From assembly GCA_902500995.1 (NCBI GenBank), contig CABVSR010000023.1, positions 1 to 59,766 of the forward strand: a stretch of DNA of 59,766 bases, read 5' to 3'. The stretch is from an uncultured Nitrospira sp. (lineage in GTDB: Bacteria; Nitrospirota; Nitrospiria; Nitrospirales; Nitrospiraceae). Numbering within the stretch: position 1 is the first letter of the stretch; each line of letters opens with the position of its first letter. Position numbers and translations under genes: made by a program. The notes under the pieces were generated by a model, which saw nothing but the letters and a program-made list of their open reading frames with translations, ran no database searches and was not told the origin of the DNA. Shown here in pieces: positions 14,312-22,196 of the stretch.

Positions 14312-14986
14312 CTATTTCACCTGCGCAAAATCAGCATCGAACTGCATGGTCTGACCATCCTGCAAGGTCACAATGATGGTGGTCTTGGCATTGGGGTCAA
14401 ACGACTCATATCCAAAACGGGCGGTGAAACGCGAGCGGTAGGCGGGACCCGTGCCGTCGTTTTTTCTGCCTCGATCAGCCGGGCTGAGATCCACCGGGCG
14501 GATGTTTTTCCCCTTTTGCTGGAAGACGATGTCGGCCTTCTCGGCAAAGTATTCATCGTCGCCGCACAACTGTACTTCGACTTCCATGTTCGGCATGTCC
14601 ACGACTTTCTGGATAAACTCGTCGGGCATGCGGACATCTTTCTTCTGTTTTTTCGATTCGGCTGCTTCCTGCCGGCCGAACGCCTCCAAGCGGTAGCGCT
14701 TGGTGCGCAGAATGGCGCTGGCGCCGCAGGGATCTTTTTCAGGATCTGCGCCTACCCGCGTGACCAGCGAGGCTTGTTGCAAGATTTTCTTCACGTCTTC
14801 CGGCGACGCGGCTTTGTCCATCGGCGTTCGGCCGGCTTCCAGCGCTTTCTTGGCATCTTCGGGAGACAACTTCACATCGATCGCCCAAGCCGGCCCACCG
14901 GCTGCCAACGCTATCGTTCCGACCACCAACCCGACTACCGCATGAATCCGCCCACGCCGACTCGCCTTGCCATCATTCGCACGCAT
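14312..14986 (-). CDS. Secreted protein of unknown function
   Basis: About 224 residues. A signal peptide is clear: a basic start, then VVGLVVGTIALAAGGPAWA and a likely cleavage after AWA. The mature part begins with two short repeats containing SPEDAKK and SPEDVKK. Two cysteines lie about 60 residues apart (DPCGAS and VQLCGDD) and could form a disulfide. The remaining sequence is mixed alpha/beta and ends in a strand-rich part (TTIIVTLQDGQTMQF). I do not recognise a family. It lies upstream of the pyruvate dehydrogenase operon but 146 bases away. Confidence 0.75.
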   Translation of the reverse strand: MRANDGKASRRGRIHAVVGLVVGTIALAAGGPAWAIDVKLSPEDAKKALEAGRTPMDKAASPEDVKKILQQASLVTRVGADPEKDPCGASAILRTKRYRLEAFGRQEAAESKKQKKDVRMPDEFIQKVVDMPNMEVEVQLCGDDEYFAEKADIVFQQKGKNIRPVDLSPADRGRKNDGTGPAYRSRFTARFGYESFDPNAKTTIIVTLQDGQTMQFDADFAQVK

Positions 14987-15091: not shown

Positions 15092-15724
15092 CTAGTCACG
15101 AAAGCGGTCCCAGTTGGGATAGGGTCTGCGGGCGTACAGGTGATCGATGTCGACCGGACAGGAGAGCCCGCGCTGATGGAGCATCTCAGCGACCAGCCGC
15201 AGGGGCAGCCCCACGGCTGCGGTGAAATCCCCCTCGATTCGCTCGATGAAGGCCGCCCCGTCCCCCTGAATGGAATAGGCTCCGGCCTTGCCCAAGCTGT
15301 CGCCGGTTCGCAGATACGCGGCTAACGCCGCTTCGTTCAATGGTTTCATCGTCACCAGTACCTCTGCCAGCCGGGCTTCACACCGCTCAGGCTCCGGGCC
15401 TGCCAAGGCCACGGCTGTCACAATCCGGTGCTTCTTCCCGGCCATGCGGCGGAGCATCTCCTCGGCGCCCGCCAGATCGATTGGCTTTCCCAACACCTCA
15501 GAGCCCAAACTGATCAACGTATCGCTTCCCAGTATGAGGGCATCAGAACAGATGGACAGGCAAGACCGGGCCTTGCCTGCGGCGAATGCCATGGCCTGCT
15601 CATCGGCAGACAGGTGCGGCTGAACCTGTTCAATGAACGGTGGGGCGACGACATCAAACAGCAACCCGAGAAGCGCCAGCAATTCGTGCCGGCGAGGCGA
15701 GGTGGAGGCAAGAATCAATCGCAT
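15092..15724 (-). CDS. maf: Maf-like nucleotide pyrophosphatase
   Basis: About 210 residues of the Maf/YhdE fold. The phosphate-binding start (LILASTSPRRHELL), GSDTLISLGSEVLGKP and YSIQGDGAAFIERIEGDF are diagnostic. Maf proteins hydrolyse non-canonical or modified nucleoside triphosphates, and overexpression affects septation. The first motif has STSPRR, as in family members, so the catalytic frame is intact. It starts three bases after the dihydrouridine synthase gene and belongs to that operon. Confidence 0.93.
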   Translation of the reverse strand: MRLILASTSPRRHELLALLGLLFDVVAPPFIEQVQPHLSADEQAMAFAAGKARSCLSICSDALILGSDTLISLGSEVLGKPIDLAGAEEMLRRMAGKKHRIVTAVALAGPEPERCEARLAEVLVTMKPLNEAALAAYLRTGDSLGKAGAYSIQGDGAAFIERIEGDFTAAVGLPLRLVAEMLHQRGLSCPVDIDHLYARRPYPNWDRFRD

Positions 15725-15727
15725 GGG

Positions 15728-16912
15728 TCAGGATGCACGGGGGAATGGGAAGTGAGTGTCCATGGAATCGTCTTGAGATCCGGCGGCCTCCTTCAGCATG
15801 AGGTCCTGGCAAAACTCTGCGATGATGCGTTCGACATCCTGCACGGTGGAGACCCCGAACAGTTTGGCACGCATGGCCGCCGCGTGAGGAAACCCTTTGC
15901 AGTACCATCCCAGATGTTTCCGGATCGAGCGGAAACAGTCCAAGCCGGCAATAGCCTCGTACTGCCGCGCATGATCGAGCATGACCTGCATGCGGTGGCG
16001 TAAAGACACCGGCGGCTCCCAGAAGGTGGCGGGCAGTGCCGACAGATCGAGCCGGTCGGTGCAGGCGAGGCGAGCCTGTTCCTTTTCACGGAAGAACCAC
16101 GGCGCGCCGAGGGTTCCGCGCCCGATCAACACGCCCTGCACCCGGCTCTCCGCCACACGACGAACCGCGTCGACCAACGTCGTGAGGTCGCCGTTACCAA
16201 GAATCAACGTTCCCGTACCGCGGGCGAGGGTGGCCGCTTCGGCAATAGCGGACCAATCGGCGGCACCGCGATACATCTGTTGCAAAGTCCGGCCGTGCAC
16301 CGTAATGGCGGCCGGATGCGCTTCCAGCAGATGTTCCACCCATCGCCCGACCACGACACAATCGAACCCCAACCGCGTCTTGACGGACAGGGGGAGCAGC
16401 CGGCGCGGCACAACGGGAGAACCGCAACGCCGATAATTCAGCTCGTGAATAAATTCGATCCGAGACGGTTTAAACCCCTGCTGATGGATCGATTGCCCGC
16501 CGGCCCAATCCTCCAACCCCTGCCTCGCGGCTTTCAGAATCGCATGGGCCAGATCCGGCGTTTTGATGAGCGCCGCGCCTGAACCGGACGCGGCGACACT
16601 TTTCGACGGGCAACCCATATTGATATCGAGCCCGTCGAACCCGAGTTCGCAGACCACCTGCGCCGCTCGATAAAATTGCTCCGGATCCTTGCCGTACAAC
16701 TGGGCCACGATCGGCCGCTCGAGGTCGCTATAAATCAGCGAGGACAGCAGATGATCCGGTCCGCGGCAGATTTCGTTGACGTTGGTGAACTCGGTGAAGG
16801 TGATGTCGGGCCGGCCCTGGGAGGCCACCACGCGACGGAACGCGGCATCCGTTACCCCGTCCATCGGCGCCAATCCCAAAATGGGTTGTGGAAGCGTCGT
16901 CCACAAGCTCAT
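15728..16912 (-). CDS. tRNA-dihydrouridine synthase
   Basis: About 394 residues of the Dus TIM-barrel family. FMN- and substrate-binding motifs are seen: LGLAPMDGVTDAAFRR, NMGCPSKSVAASGSGA (catalytic Cys), VKTRLG, TVHGRTLQQMYRGAADW and LGNGDLTT. It reduces uridine in tRNA D-loops. The length is larger than usual (about 320) because of inserts around residues 135-160 and a longer C-terminus. Which of DusA, B or C it matches cannot be decided by eye. It overlaps the stop of the DUF692-like gene by four bases and is followed by maf. Confidence 0.9.
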   Translation of the reverse strand: MSLWTTLPQPILGLAPMDGVTDAAFRRVVASQGRPDITFTEFTNVNEICRGPDHLLSSLIYSDLERPIVAQLYGKDPEQFYRAAQVVCELGFDGLDINMGCPSKSVAASGSGAALIKTPDLAHAILKAARQGLEDWAGGQSIHQQGFKPSRIEFIHELNYRRCGSPVVPRRLLPLSVKTRLGFDCVVVGRWVEHLLEAHPAAITVHGRTLQQMYRGAADWSAIAEAATLARGTGTLILGNGDLTTLVDAVRRVAESRVQGVLIGRGTLGAPWFFREKEQARLACTDRLDLSALPATFWEPPVSLRHRMQVMLDHARQYEAIAGLDCFRSIRKHLGWYCKGFPHAAAMRAKLFGVSTVQDVERIIAEFCQDLMLKEAAGSQDDSMDTHFPFPRAS

Positions 16913-18390
16913 GCGCGCACCTGAGCCGAGCCGACCGGTTCATTCGCCGCGCGATACGCGGCCCGCAGCTCTTCCGCCTCTCGCATGACCGTCACGGCAG
17001 TCGTCGGGCAAGTTTCCGTGGCAAATTCCACAAATCGATCGATCTTCAACAGGAAAAAATCGTAGTCGTCCTGCTCGGGTCTCGGTCGGCTGAACCAGAA
17101 GGGGACAAACTGATCCAGTGGAATATTTGCTTCCTTCAAAGCACGACAGGTTTCCGGAAACATGTCGTGCAAGTCGCCGCCCCAGTGCAGCAATTCATGC
17201 GGCAAATACCGGTCCCGATACCGATTGAGATCCTCCTGCGAGCCGCCCAGCAGGCGCACAGCTTCCAATACTGAGGGAGATTCGCGCCTCGTCACGAATT
17301 GCACGTAGTTGCGATAGTGTTGCTGTAGAGCCGTGTGTTCACCCGGAGTCAGGCGTCGCATCACCTGAAGCGAACGATCGACCGGCGCCCGCGGCGCGAG
17401 CGATGGTTCCCGGTCTCCACGCTGCACCTTCCCGTCAACCGTTCGTCCAAAGCGCTCCAGAAATTGCCGGAATTCTTCGACGATCAGGGGGATGGACTTG
17501 GTATCGACTTCCAGCGCGACCCCTTTTAACGATGTCAGACAGGGATGGTACAGGACCTGCTCCAAGAGGTCGAATAAGACTGCTGGAATCGGCGCGCCGT
17601 GCGCATCGATCCAATAGGGCAACCCATCGCCGCCCGCGCCCAATCCTGGAACCTCTGGAATCATGAATTCAGCCAGCCCCGCGACATGAATCTCGACCAC
17701 CCGTTCCATGGGAAAGGCATCAAGAAACCCGGCGACAAAATCCTCCAGGCGCTGTGTTCGCCAGCTCCCCGTATAGCGATGTACCGTCCATAGATGTCCG
17801 ATATCCAACACGAGGCCGCAGGTCGCCCGGTCGGTCACTGCGCGAAAAAATTCAGGAATGGGCAGTTCGCCGCAGCCGAAATAGGTGAGCGGCGGCATTT
17901 CTAAGAGAACCAGCGCAGGATCGATCCCCTGCCTGCGCGCATCTCGATCCACCTGCTCTTGAAGGTAGGCCAGATTTTCAGCCGTCATTCTGGCCGAGAG
18001 CTCCGTATAGAGCGGCGGCAAATAGGTACCGAACGCGTAGCCCGCCATCTGTTTGGTCGCGCATTCATGATTCAGCCAGGCGCTATGCAGGGCCGCAAGA
18101 TGCGCACAGGCTTCCGCCACTCCCTGGCGGCCGCTTGCACTGTGGGGAAATTCCGGTTGCGTACTCCACAAGCCTTCCCCGTGGTAGGGGAGCTTGATGC
18201 CCGGCAATTGTTGCCGGACCCATTGCAGGACGGACGTCGTGGCCTTGAACACTTCCAGGTATTCCGGCTCCAACCCTGCATGACAAAGCGCGCGAACCAG
18301 CTCCAGCAGATCCGGAGAATACACGTCCACGGACAACCCGAGACCATGCGCGGCGAGACGATTCGCACGTTGTGTGAATTCACTTTTCAT
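16909..18390 (-). CDS. DUF692/MNIO-like enzyme with extra C-terminal domain
   Basis: About 493 residues. The first ~310 match the DUF692 (multinuclear non-heme iron oxidase, MbnB/TglH/HvfB) pattern: GLGLSVDVYSPD, PYHGEGLW, an H-E pair (NHECATKQ), LLEMPPLTYFG, CGLVLDIGHLW, VVEIHVAG, WIDAHGAPIP and GVALEVDT. The His, Glu, Asp residues in these segments correspond to the iron ligands of the family. Known members modify cysteine-containing peptides. The last ~170 residues (from about SLQVMRRLTPG) are helical and faintly resemble the HvfC/DUF2063 partner (YRNYVQ, VRLLGG), suggesting a fused partner. No precursor peptide gene is obvious. It overlaps the dihydrouridine synthase start by four bases. 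The start at 18390 fits the domain edge; an ATG at 18423 is also possible. Confidence 0.72.
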   Translation of the reverse strand: MKSEFTQRANRLAAHGLGLSVDVYSPDLLELVRALCHAGLEPEYLEVFKATTSVLQWVRQQLPGIKLPYHGEGLWSTQPEFPHSASGRQGVAEACAHLAALHSAWLNHECATKQMAGYAFGTYLPPLYTELSARMTAENLAYLQEQVDRDARRQGIDPALVLLEMPPLTYFGCGELPIPEFFRAVTDRATCGLVLDIGHLWTVHRYTGSWRTQRLEDFVAGFLDAFPMERVVEIHVAGLAEFMIPEVPGLGAGGDGLPYWIDAHGAPIPAVLFDLLEQVLYHPCLTSLKGVALEVDTKSIPLIVEEFRQFLERFGRTVDGKVQRGDREPSLAPRAPVDRSLQVMRRLTPGEHTALQQHYRNYVQFVTRRESPSVLEAVRLLGGSQEDLNRYRDRYLPHELLHWGGDLHDMFPETCRALKEANIPLDQFVPFWFSRPRPEQDDYDFFLLKIDRFVEFATETCPTTAVTVMREAEELRAAYRAANEPVGSAQVRA

Positions 18391-18583: not shown

Positions 18584-19360
18584 ATGACACGAACCGGCTC
18601 CATGCTCCGCGACAAACCGACCCATTCCACAACCCCTATGGTCGCCCACATGATGACACCCGGTGTAGTGCAGATTCCCGGGGATGTCTCCGTCAGCGAG
18701 GCCGCCTCACTGCTCGATCGGGAGCAGATGCCCTGCCTGCTGGTCAAAGACGGCGAAGCGGCCTTCGGTATCATGACCTCCGGCGACATCGTCAAAAAAG
18801 TCGTGGCCCAGGGCATGGAACCGCACGATGTGGAGGTACGGGCCATCATGTCGAAACCCGTCCATTCCGTCGAATGCGATCAGATTCTCGACGACGCGAC
18901 CAGCGTCATGGCCTCCACCGGCACGTCTCTCCTGATCGTGACCAAGCAAGGACAACCAGTCGGCATCCTGACGGCGCGAGACCTGGCCCTGGCGCCGAAA
19001 CGTTGCGAGACCTGCCTTCCCGCAACCCTTCGCGTCACCAACGGCGAGGGCGAAGGGGCCAAACACACTGCCACGATCCGCCAACTCAGCTATGTCGGCG
19101 CGTCGATCGAGTGTCGCACCTTGCTGCTTCCCGGAACGAGCATCATGCTGTCCTTCATTCTACCCGGCGCGGACCTGAGCTTTTCTGTGCAAGGCACCAT
19201 TCTCAACAGCAGTTATGAGCCTGAATTCCACGAAGACCAGAGCGTGCTCGGCACGTATCAAGGAATCGACATCCAATTCACCTCCCTGCCGGCATCCGAT
19301 GAATCGAAAATTCGCGCCTGGGTCCTGCAAAATCTGCCGCGTGCGTCTGATCTCTCCTGA
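18584..19360 (+). CDS. CBS-pair protein with PilZ-like C-terminus
   Basis: About 258 residues. Two CBS motifs span residues about 15-150 (MTPGVVQIPGDVSVSEAASLL ends the first strand-helix unit, later IMSKPVHSVECDQILDDA and PVGILTARDLA), so a Bateman module that binds adenine nucleotides is likely. The C-terminal ~100 residues look like a PilZ domain: LRVTNGEGEGAKH then IRQLSYVGASIE and a final helix (ESKIRAWVLQN). PilZ domains bind cyclic di-GMP, but the usual RxxxR is not clear, so binding is uncertain. A link between energy state and second messenger is inference. It stands alone with its own promoter. Confidence 0.75.
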   Translation: MTRTGSMLRDKPTHSTTPMVAHMMTPGVVQIPGDVSVSEAASLLDREQMPCLLVKDGEAAFGIMTSGDIVKKVVAQGMEPHDVEVRAIMSKPVHSVECDQILDDATSVMASTGTSLLIVTKQGQPVGILTARDLALAPKRCETCLPATLRVTNGEGEGAKHTATIRQLSYVGASIECRTLLLPGTSIMLSFILPGADLSFSVQGTILNSSYEPEFHEDQSVLGTYQGIDIQFTSLPASDESKIRAWVLQNLPRASDLS

Positions 19361-20611: not shown

Positions 20612-21469
20612 ATGAGCGCTGCCACCATGCGAACCCTGTCGTCCTCTCCACCCACGCTGGTCCTGTATCATGCCGAATGTGCGGATGGATTCGGCGCCGC
20701 CTGGGCCATCTGGCGGCGGTATCCGGGGGCTGAGTATCGCCCGGTGAAACACGGCGAAGCGCCGCCGTCCGATCTCGCCGGGCACCACATTGTCATGGTG
20801 GATTTCAGCTACAACCGGCCGACGCTTGAAGCCATGGCCAAGGATGCGGCCAGTCTCGTGGTGCTCGATCACCACATTACCGCCGAGCAGGCGCTGGCCG
20901 ATCTTCCCTATGCCTACTTCGATCTCAATAAATCGGGAGCGGTGCTGGGATGGGAATGGGCCCACGATGAACCGGCCCCCTGGCTGTTGCGCTACATCCA
21001 AGACAAGGATTTGTGGCACTGGGCCCTTCCGCACAGCCGTGAAATCAGCGCCGCGCTGGCCTCCTACCCGTTCGACTTTGACCTGTGGAGCCAGTTTGAA
21101 CAACGGGAATTAGAGCGGGAAGGCCGGGCCATTCTCCGGTACGAAAACGAACTCGTCACGAAACTCGCCTCGCACGCGACGCTGGTGCAGTTCGAAGGCA
21201 CCACGGTCCCGGCGGTCCAGAGCCAGATCCTGACCAGTCAGATCGGCGAACGGTTATCCGCCGCTCATCCGTTCTGCTTGATCTGGCATGATCGCAACGG
21301 TCGCCGGTACTTCAGCATGCGGTCCCGCGAGGATGGCACGGATGTCGGCGCCATCGCTGCCTCCTTCGGAGGCGGTGGCCATACGCATGCAGCCGGATTT
21401 TCGGTTCCGCTGCAAGCCGACGGCTTGCCTGCGCCGGATCCCCGGCTTCCACGACCGGCAACCTCATAG
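20612..21469 (+). CDS. DHH/DHHA1 family phosphoesterase
   Basis: About 285 residues. The N-terminal DHH fold has a metal-binding HAECADGFGAAW, VDFSYN and the motif VVLDHHIT. The C-terminus has the DHHA1 substrate motif GGGGHTHAAGF. Such proteins hydrolyse phosphodiesters (oligoribonucleotides, pAp or cyclic dinucleotides). The HxxCxDGxGAAW form is typical of uncharacterised members related to RecJ/NrnA, so the substrate is not clear. The ATG has AAGGTG upstream. The rhomboid gene begins 22 bases after the stop and may be co-transcribed. Confidence 0.85.
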   Translation: MSAATMRTLSSSPPTLVLYHAECADGFGAAWAIWRRYPGAEYRPVKHGEAPPSDLAGHHIVMVDFSYNRPTLEAMAKDAASLVVLDHHITAEQALADLPYAYFDLNKSGAVLGWEWAHDEPAPWLLRYIQDKDLWHWALPHSREISAALASYPFDFDLWSQFEQRELEREGRAILRYENELVTKLASHATLVQFEGTTVPAVQSQILTSQIGERLSAAHPFCLIWHDRNGRRYFSMRSREDGTDVGAIAASFGGGGHTHAAGFSVPLQADGLPAPDPRLPRPATS

Positions 21470-21491
21470 CTCTTTTCGGCCAGGTGTCGCA

Positions 21492-22196
21492 ATGCTGCCC
21501 CTGAGTGACGACAACCCGACGGAACGCACGCCTGTTGTCACCATCGCCTTCATCCTCGCCTGCTCGCTCGTCTTCCTGTACCAGAGTTCGCTGCGACCGG
21601 CCTCGGGTGAAGCCTTCGTGTACCAGTACGGAGCGATCCCATCCATCGTGTTCGGCCAGGCAACTCTCCCGCCGGAAATCGCCACCATCCCGGCCTATGC
21701 GACGATTCTGACCAGCATGTTTCTACATGGCAGCTGGATGCATCTGATCGGGAACATGTTGTACCTCTGGGTCTTCGGCAACAACATCGAAGACATCATG
21801 GGGCATGGCAGGTTTATCGTATTTTACGTGGGGTGCGGAATCCTGGCGGCGTTGAGCCATGCAGTGACCGATCCCACTTCCACGGTCCCGATGGTCGGCG
21901 CAAGCGGGGCCATATCAGGAGTGCTGGGCGCGTATCTGCTGCTGTTTCCCCATGCCCGCGTTTTGCTGATTGCCCCGATCGTGGGCACCACCTATGTACC
22001 GGCCGGTATCGTGCTGGGATTGTGGTTCGTCATGCAGTTGCTGAACGGCGGCGCCAGCCTGGGATCGCAAGGGGGAGGCGTGGCGTTTTTCGCGCATATC
22101 GGCGGGTTCATTGCGGGAATGATGCTGATCGGCTTCTTCAAGCGCCCGGACGTGCGATTTTTTAAGCCTGCCCGCACGACGACCTGGCGGTTCTAG
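21492..22196 (+). CDS. Rhomboid-family intramembrane serine protease
   Basis: About 234 residues with six or seven hydrophobic segments. Family features are present: TSMFLHGSWMHLIGNMLYLWVFG in loop 1 and TM2, the catalytic Ser in GASGAISGVLGAYL, and the catalytic His in FFAHIGGFIAGM. It cleaves membrane proteins within the bilayer. The start at 21492 is chosen because the longer frame overlaps the DHH gene and lacks a membrane-type start. It converges with the hybrid kinase on the other strand, 16 bases away. Confidence 0.93.
   Translation: MLPLSDDNPTERTPVVTIAFILACSLVFLYQSSLRPASGEAFVYQYGAIPSIVFGQATLPPEIATIPAYATILTSMFLHGSWMHLIGNMLYLWVFGNNIEDIMGHGRFIVFYVGCGILAALSHAVTDPTSTVPMVGASGAISGVLGAYLLLFPHARVLLIAPIVGTTYVPAGIVLGLWFVMQLLNGGASLGSQGGGVAFFAHIGGFIAGMMLIGFFKRPDVRFFKPARTTTWRF

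Follow-up and report, generated by a model that had tools for sequence, protein, structure and literature searches.

The window, that is, the whole stretch of 59,766 nucleotides analyzed here (contig CABVSR010000023.1 of assembly GCA_902500995.1, from an uncultured Nitrospira sp.), carries a gene for a DUF692/MNIO-like enzyme with a fused C-terminal domain, followed on the same strand by three further genes.

16909..18390, minus strand: proposed MNIO-partner fusion protein, 493 aa
15728..16912, minus strand: tRNA dihydrouridine synthase (DusB-like)
15092..15724, minus strand: maf nucleotide pyrophosphatase
14312..14986, minus strand: conserved secreted-type protein after maf

The coordinates and the strand that a sequence-only reading had assigned to the MNIO gene were right, and so was its remark that the gene overlaps dus and has maf behind it; the overlap is an ATGA at 16909-16912. 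The start Met of the 493-aa ORF is at 18390 and the homologues begin at the equivalent Met, with in-frame alternatives upstream at ATG 18423 and GTG 18459. The neighbors match PF01207 (dus, E 1e-55) and PF02545 (maf, E 5e-49), and the order with maf is conserved. The secreted-type protein follows maf in 75 of 80 loci and is conserved within the taxonomic order, has no Pfam or NCBIfam match, and has a second, distant paralogue in most genomes that hold a homologue. A divergent gene for a CBS-CBS-PilZ protein (18584-19360) faces the MNIO gene and is missing in L030 and L032, which keep the MNIO. Positions 20612-22196 hold a DHH/DHHA1-type phosphoesterase-like ORF and then a rhomboid protease (the listed rhomboid ORF overlaps), an order kept in most related loci.

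The 493-aa protein matches PF05114 (DUF692) with 48.9 bits (cut-off 25 bits) and an E value of 7e-13, which is its sole Pfam match, and the source genome (3.97 Mb) encodes no second PF05114 protein. The NCBIfam MNIO equivalogs ApyH, BufB, and HvfB gave weak scores far under their cut-offs. A check for association with defence by PADLOC gave no match, and a plasmid search found no full-length relatives. An AlphaFold model of the whole protein, for which 29 homologues were the input, had a pLDDT of 89 and a pTM of 0.91, and it divides the protein as follows.

17419..18390, minus strand: catalytic TIM barrel, residues 1-324
17359..17418, minus strand: low-confidence linker, residues 325-344 (pLDDT about 54-71)
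16933..17358, minus strand: all-helical partner-like domain, residues 345-486 (142 aa)

When the model was compared with VIA, the top match was TglH (8hi7_B, Z 25.8, rmsd 2.8, 267 aligned), followed by MbnB (Z 23.7) and the HvfB relative 3bww (Z 20.1), whereas the best non-MNIO fold reached only 16.8. Structure prediction thus gives a TIM barrel for which MNIO structures rank top. The barrel also aligned by hhalign with a profile of 13 other, canonical MNIOs (99.7%, E 1e-25), so that the assignment to the DUF692/MNIO-like enzymes, first made from the letters alone, is borne out by family profile, fold, and profile alignment. The residues predicted to bind metal are encoded at the following positions.

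18181..18183, minus strand: His70, predicted metal ligand, equal to the first His of canonical MNIOs
18064..18066, minus strand: Glu109, at the canonical SEHL His position
17899..17901, minus strand: Glu164, predicted metal ligand
17794..17805, minus strand: Asp196-x-x-His199, predicted metal ligands (canonical Asp-x-x-Asn)
17686..17688, minus strand: His235, predicted metal ligand
17599..17607, minus strand: Asp262-x-His264, predicted third-site ligands
17509..17511, minus strand: Glu294, predicted metal ligand (EVD; canonical EWD)

All nine ligand positions (H70, E109, E164, D196, H199, H235, D262, H264, and E294) are invariant across lineages, in 29 homologues with identities as low as 30%, and they lie at positions equivalent to those of canonical MNIOs, as the ligand-type residues noticed earlier would require. 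His70 and Glu109 are aligned with their canonical counterparts and His235 with the canonical EIH; hhalign pairs LLEMPP with LLENPS at Glu164; the canonical rows read DVNN or DLNN at Asp196-x-x-His199; and Asp262 and His264 are equivalent to D242 and H244 of HvfB (PMC13419390). The set is full, with two changes relative to the bufferin-type MNIOs: the His of SEHL is replaced by Glu109, and the last Asn of DVNN by His199. Glu109 stands in the context NHEC, where two members of family f3 have Gln in place of His108. The published AlphaFold 3 model of PbsC, a Phe ortho-hydroxylase, assigns H97, D133, and E178, H216, D260, and H262, and D213, H247, and E290 to its three sites (PMC12257519). The ligand types of the fused MNIO match these in identical order, with the Asp133 of PbsC where Glu109 stands. 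In MbnB, the iron with two His ligands holds the substrate thiolate (PMC13419390), and the change from His to an acidic residue at that iron therefore suggests, by analogy, that the fused MNIO may act on a non-cysteine substrate. A tree of the barrels placed the fused family together with the barrel of genome G299 (see below) in one clade (100/98), the canonical MNIOs were separate (100/99), and the two plasmid-borne MNIOs L180 and L181, which are acidic at the changed position, were nearest to the fused clade on long branches.

The C-terminal helical domain proposed by the sequence-only reading exists: predicted alone from 54 sequences, it was all-helical with a pLDDT of 89, and it is conserved among the homologues, with G404, G405, P412, D444, K449, and E471 invariant. 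By sequence, comparison with the PDB yielded noise only, and so did Pfam for the 54 C-domains up to an E value of 10, with no PF09836 among the matches; we therefore term the domain partner-like and not a member of DUF2063. The hhalign alignment with DUF2063 was colinear but fell short of significance (P 0.19 for 4 rows and 0.03 for 23 rows), and Foldseek with the C-domain alone gave no match with E < 1. When VIA was run over the 170 chains of Foldseek, TglI (8hi7_A) came first with a Z of 5.9, which is within noise (rmsd 5.4, 123 aligned). The match covers TglI 1-156 from end to end, and it is notable for which protein it is, not for its Z value. The partners MbnC and NGO1945 are not in the VIA list, an absence that carries no weight. 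The all-helical model contains no beta-strand region for pairing with a leader, as the winged helix of an RRE would have.

The best evidence that the C-domain is partner-like is genomic, and it comes from a split relative. In G299, a genome of family f6, barrel and C-domain are encoded by two overlapping genes (L202:2476-3860). The barrel gene encodes a 314-aa member of the family (40% identity). The second ORF (L202:3390-3860, 156 aa) scored 108.6 bits (E 1e-31) against the profile of the C-domain, whereas 500 shuffles reached at most 7.9 bits. The genes overlap by 31 bases, a GGAG lies four bases 5' of the second ATG, and the break falls inside the low-confidence linker. The barrel precedes the C-domain homologue, which is the canonical order, as MNIO systems are usually arranged as enzyme and then partner (PMC12452194). 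The split form was found in this one MAG, all other members being fused, and a frameshift error in a single MAG is a possible cause.

Canonical partners were then considered across a phylum sample of 246 genomes. DUF2063 (PF09836) occurs in 17 of them, each of which has a canonical MNIO of 260 residues as well; 12 of these 17 have DUF2282 precursors. Comparison of two surveys of the phylum gives about 73 genomes with the fused gene and without DUF2063, and in the source genome itself searches for PF09836/DUF2063, DUF2282, and TIGR04222 found none. Some Nitrospira-type genomes, a minority of those sampled (L147-L168), have in addition a canonical MNIO of the bufferin type, accompanied by DUF2063 and in most cases by DUF2282. 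The split homologue in G299, the first rank of TglI by structure, and the absence of DUF2063 from the source genome support the earlier description of the domain as partner-like, and from the genomics we infer a self-sufficient form of MNIO.

The fused gene is present in single copy, and almost every genome sampled from the same family has a full-length homologue. Among 61 near genomes, it was found in 27 of the 28 belonging to the same genus (61-77% identity, nearly full length); in the 28th, G010, the sole match was weak and in keeping with a canonical MNIO. Elsewhere in the order, some members of two further families carry the fused gene, and in the phylum it also occurs in family f21, at 34-43% identity. 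Among the best 80 of 287 public relatives, all but two are titled Nitrospira or Nitrospirota, and the two Nitrosospira titles look mislabelled. The fused MNIO thus looks like a single-copy core gene of Nitrospira-type bacteria that is vertically inherited. Losses also occur: the copy in G044 is broken, and in the 2.2-Mb genome G314 (L232) the MNIO is cut to about 100 N-terminal residues while the flanks are intact, with the LOG-like gene on one side and dus, maf, and the following gene on the other.

The search for a substrate near the gene was negative. When all ORFs of at least 25 aa in the flanks from families f1, f2, f3, and f21 were compared, no common small ORF or neighbor was found; the shared items were the MNIO itself, its antisense shadows, and chance domain matches. 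The comparison of the four lineages is in agreement with the earlier statement that there is no evident precursor peptide. Three candidates were also rejected. The secreted-type protein at 14312-14986 is an unsuitable dedicated substrate, since it also occurs in f3 g11 genomes that lack the MNIO and was not found in f21, which has it. A bufferin precursor acting in trans is excluded by the absence of DUF2282 from the source genome and by its tracking of canonical MNIOs, and the source genome has no TIGR04222 protein. As no recognizable target lies nearby, the substrate is probably a peptide or protein of the cell encoded elsewhere. Of the suggestion that the enzyme has a different substrate, the part resting on the His-to-Glu and Asn-to-His ligand changes is plausible, and no substrate was found to complete it.

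The computation shows the fold, the complete ligand set, the two domains, the split form, and the broad conservation, and it shows neither a canonical partner nor a clustered precursor. The explanation that we favor, and regard as reasonably probable, is that the protein is a vertically inherited, single-chain fusion of an MNIO with its partner, which oxygenates a residue, probably other than Cys, in a peptide or protein whose gene lies elsewhere in the genome. By analogy with known MNIOs, two or three irons would sit in the barrel, which would use O2. The C-domain would take over the docking and cofactor-tuning job of a separate partner (PME, DUF2063-like, without RRE); like HvfC in its pairing with HvfB, it may bind the substrate and bring the irons to the mixed-valent state. 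HvfB requires HvfC to reach its active Fe(II)/Fe(III) state, and when the two were fused artificially, with HvfB first as the barrel is here and with no linker, the product was active (PMC13419390). Oxygen would be inserted at a non-cysteine residue, probably as a hydroxylation. Considering that there is neither an RRE nor a clustered peptide, the leading idea is a substrate in trans, possibly a folded protein. A more specific proposal, which we put forward tentatively and think could well be wrong, is that the MNIO has a housekeeping role apart from RiPP biosynthesis: a single-chain iron oxygenase, passed on vertically among Nitrospira-type bacteria and their relatives, it would hydroxylate a folded protein of the cell at one of its residues, and not a dedicated peptide.

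The genes around the MNIO invite another explanation, namely that MNIO and Dus act on RNA or the translation machinery and that the operon is a unit for tRNA or ribosome modification. The gene is followed by dus in 80 of 80 Nitrospira-type loci examined, 52 of which have, like the source locus, an ATGA at the MNIO stop, and at L065 (family f2) the MNIO overlaps a gene for an S4-type pseudouridine synthase and not dus. However, the coupling to tRNA modification emphasized by the sequence-only reading is no general feature, because the MNIO-dus pair is confined to one family and absent in four other lineages. Judged from sequence, the MNIO of the f3 loci comes after a pair of ORFs resembling the subunits of glutamate synthase, and the upstream gene in f6 reads as precorrin-2 dehydrogenase; in f21, the genes nearby belong to chemotaxis and signaling (CheZ, MCP, or GGDEF). 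The two genes also part company: dus is far from the MNIO in G050, G057, and G037, occurs in G054 and G260 although these lack the fused MNIO, and was looked for without success in the MNIO-bearing G077, and G314 lost most of the MNIO but kept dus, maf, and the next gene. Moreover, the characterized MNIOs named in the literature examined all have peptide substrates. The MNIO-dus pair is an operon of one lineage and no functional signature of the enzyme, and we consider an action on RNA or translation improbable.

There is a still slighter chance that the barrel is a xylose-isomerase-like one with other chemistry, such as that of a hydrolase, nuclease, or epimerase. D196-x-x-H199 together with D262-x-H264 would suit such an enzyme, endonuclease IV was among the Foldseek matches, and the third-site His-Asp-His set resembles that of endonuclease IV. 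Yet every MNIO structure outranks such enzymes, PF05114 is the only family matched, and the description of PbsC, whose hydroxylase activity is proven, gives it identical types of ligand. It is also conceivable, and we rate this as unlikely, that the C-domain is a lineage-specific module for oligomerization or for docking to a membrane or protein and that the barrel works free of a partner; the lack of a significant DUF2063 match by sequence, the weak Z for TglI, and the missing RRE are compatible with this. What speaks against it is that the homologue in G299 is a separate adjacent gene in the position of a partner, that the structural match runs end to end over TglI 1-156, and that the six invariant residues suggest more than a spacer.

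MNIO fusions as such are already known, from MovX, ChrH, and the MNIO-nitroreductase proteins. In the limited literature set examined, there was no report of an MNIO with an all-helical partner-like domain or of a cluster-free core-gene MNIO, and no paper joining DUF692 with Nitrospira or with Leptospirillum. Two plasmid loci also have altered ligands. The 533-aa MNIO of a Streptomyces europaeiscabiei plasmid (L181:1540-3141) has its own C-terminal extension, an LDIGH motif, and an acidic first-site residue, and its neighbors are an MBL-fold protein, a 51-aa ORF that is a possible precursor, and an acyl-protein synthase; hhalign found no similarity between its C-region and the Nitrospira C-domain. 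The MNIO of a Piscinibacter gummiphilus plasmid (L180:1639-2514) has the same altered ligands, with a carbamoyltransferase gene and a 57-aa ORF nearby, which recalls the std cluster for homocitrulline hydroxylation, although no partner is annotated.

Among the known systems, PbsC/PbsD (biphenomycin-like) shares with the fused MNIO the acidic first-site residue in place of the second His, the Asp-x-x-His, and the Asp-x-His, but it has a separate RRE-bearing PbsD, a clustered precursor, and Asp133 instead of Glu109. TglH/TglI is the closest solved fold for both the barrel (Z 25.8) and the C-domain (Z 5.9, weak); however, it consists of two proteins, acts on Cys, has Asp-x-x-Asn, and its precursor is clustered. 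Like the fused MNIO, MovX from Vibrio has no separate partner and carries an extra C-terminal domain (PMC12452194, PMC13419390), although that domain is a winged helix/RRE and not all-helical, and its substrate MovA is clustered. The PflD-type MNIO-nitroreductase fusion and ChrH also combine the barrel with a fused or additional domain, but what is added is another enzyme or a domain with no assigned role, and both belong to peptide clusters. BufB/BufC/BufA, present in some Nitrospira genomes, has a barrel of the same superfamily and partly shares its genomes with the fused MNIO, whereas it belongs to the separate canonical clade (100/99), and the DUF2063 partner and DUF2282 precursor co-occur with the BufB type only. 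The characterized MNIOs are peptide-tailoring enzymes of biosynthetic clusters, mostly with a separate partner, whereas the fused MNIO is a core gene with no clustered peptide. It points to MNIO chemistry beyond peptide natural products and offers one stable protein for studying the effect of the partner on the iron site.
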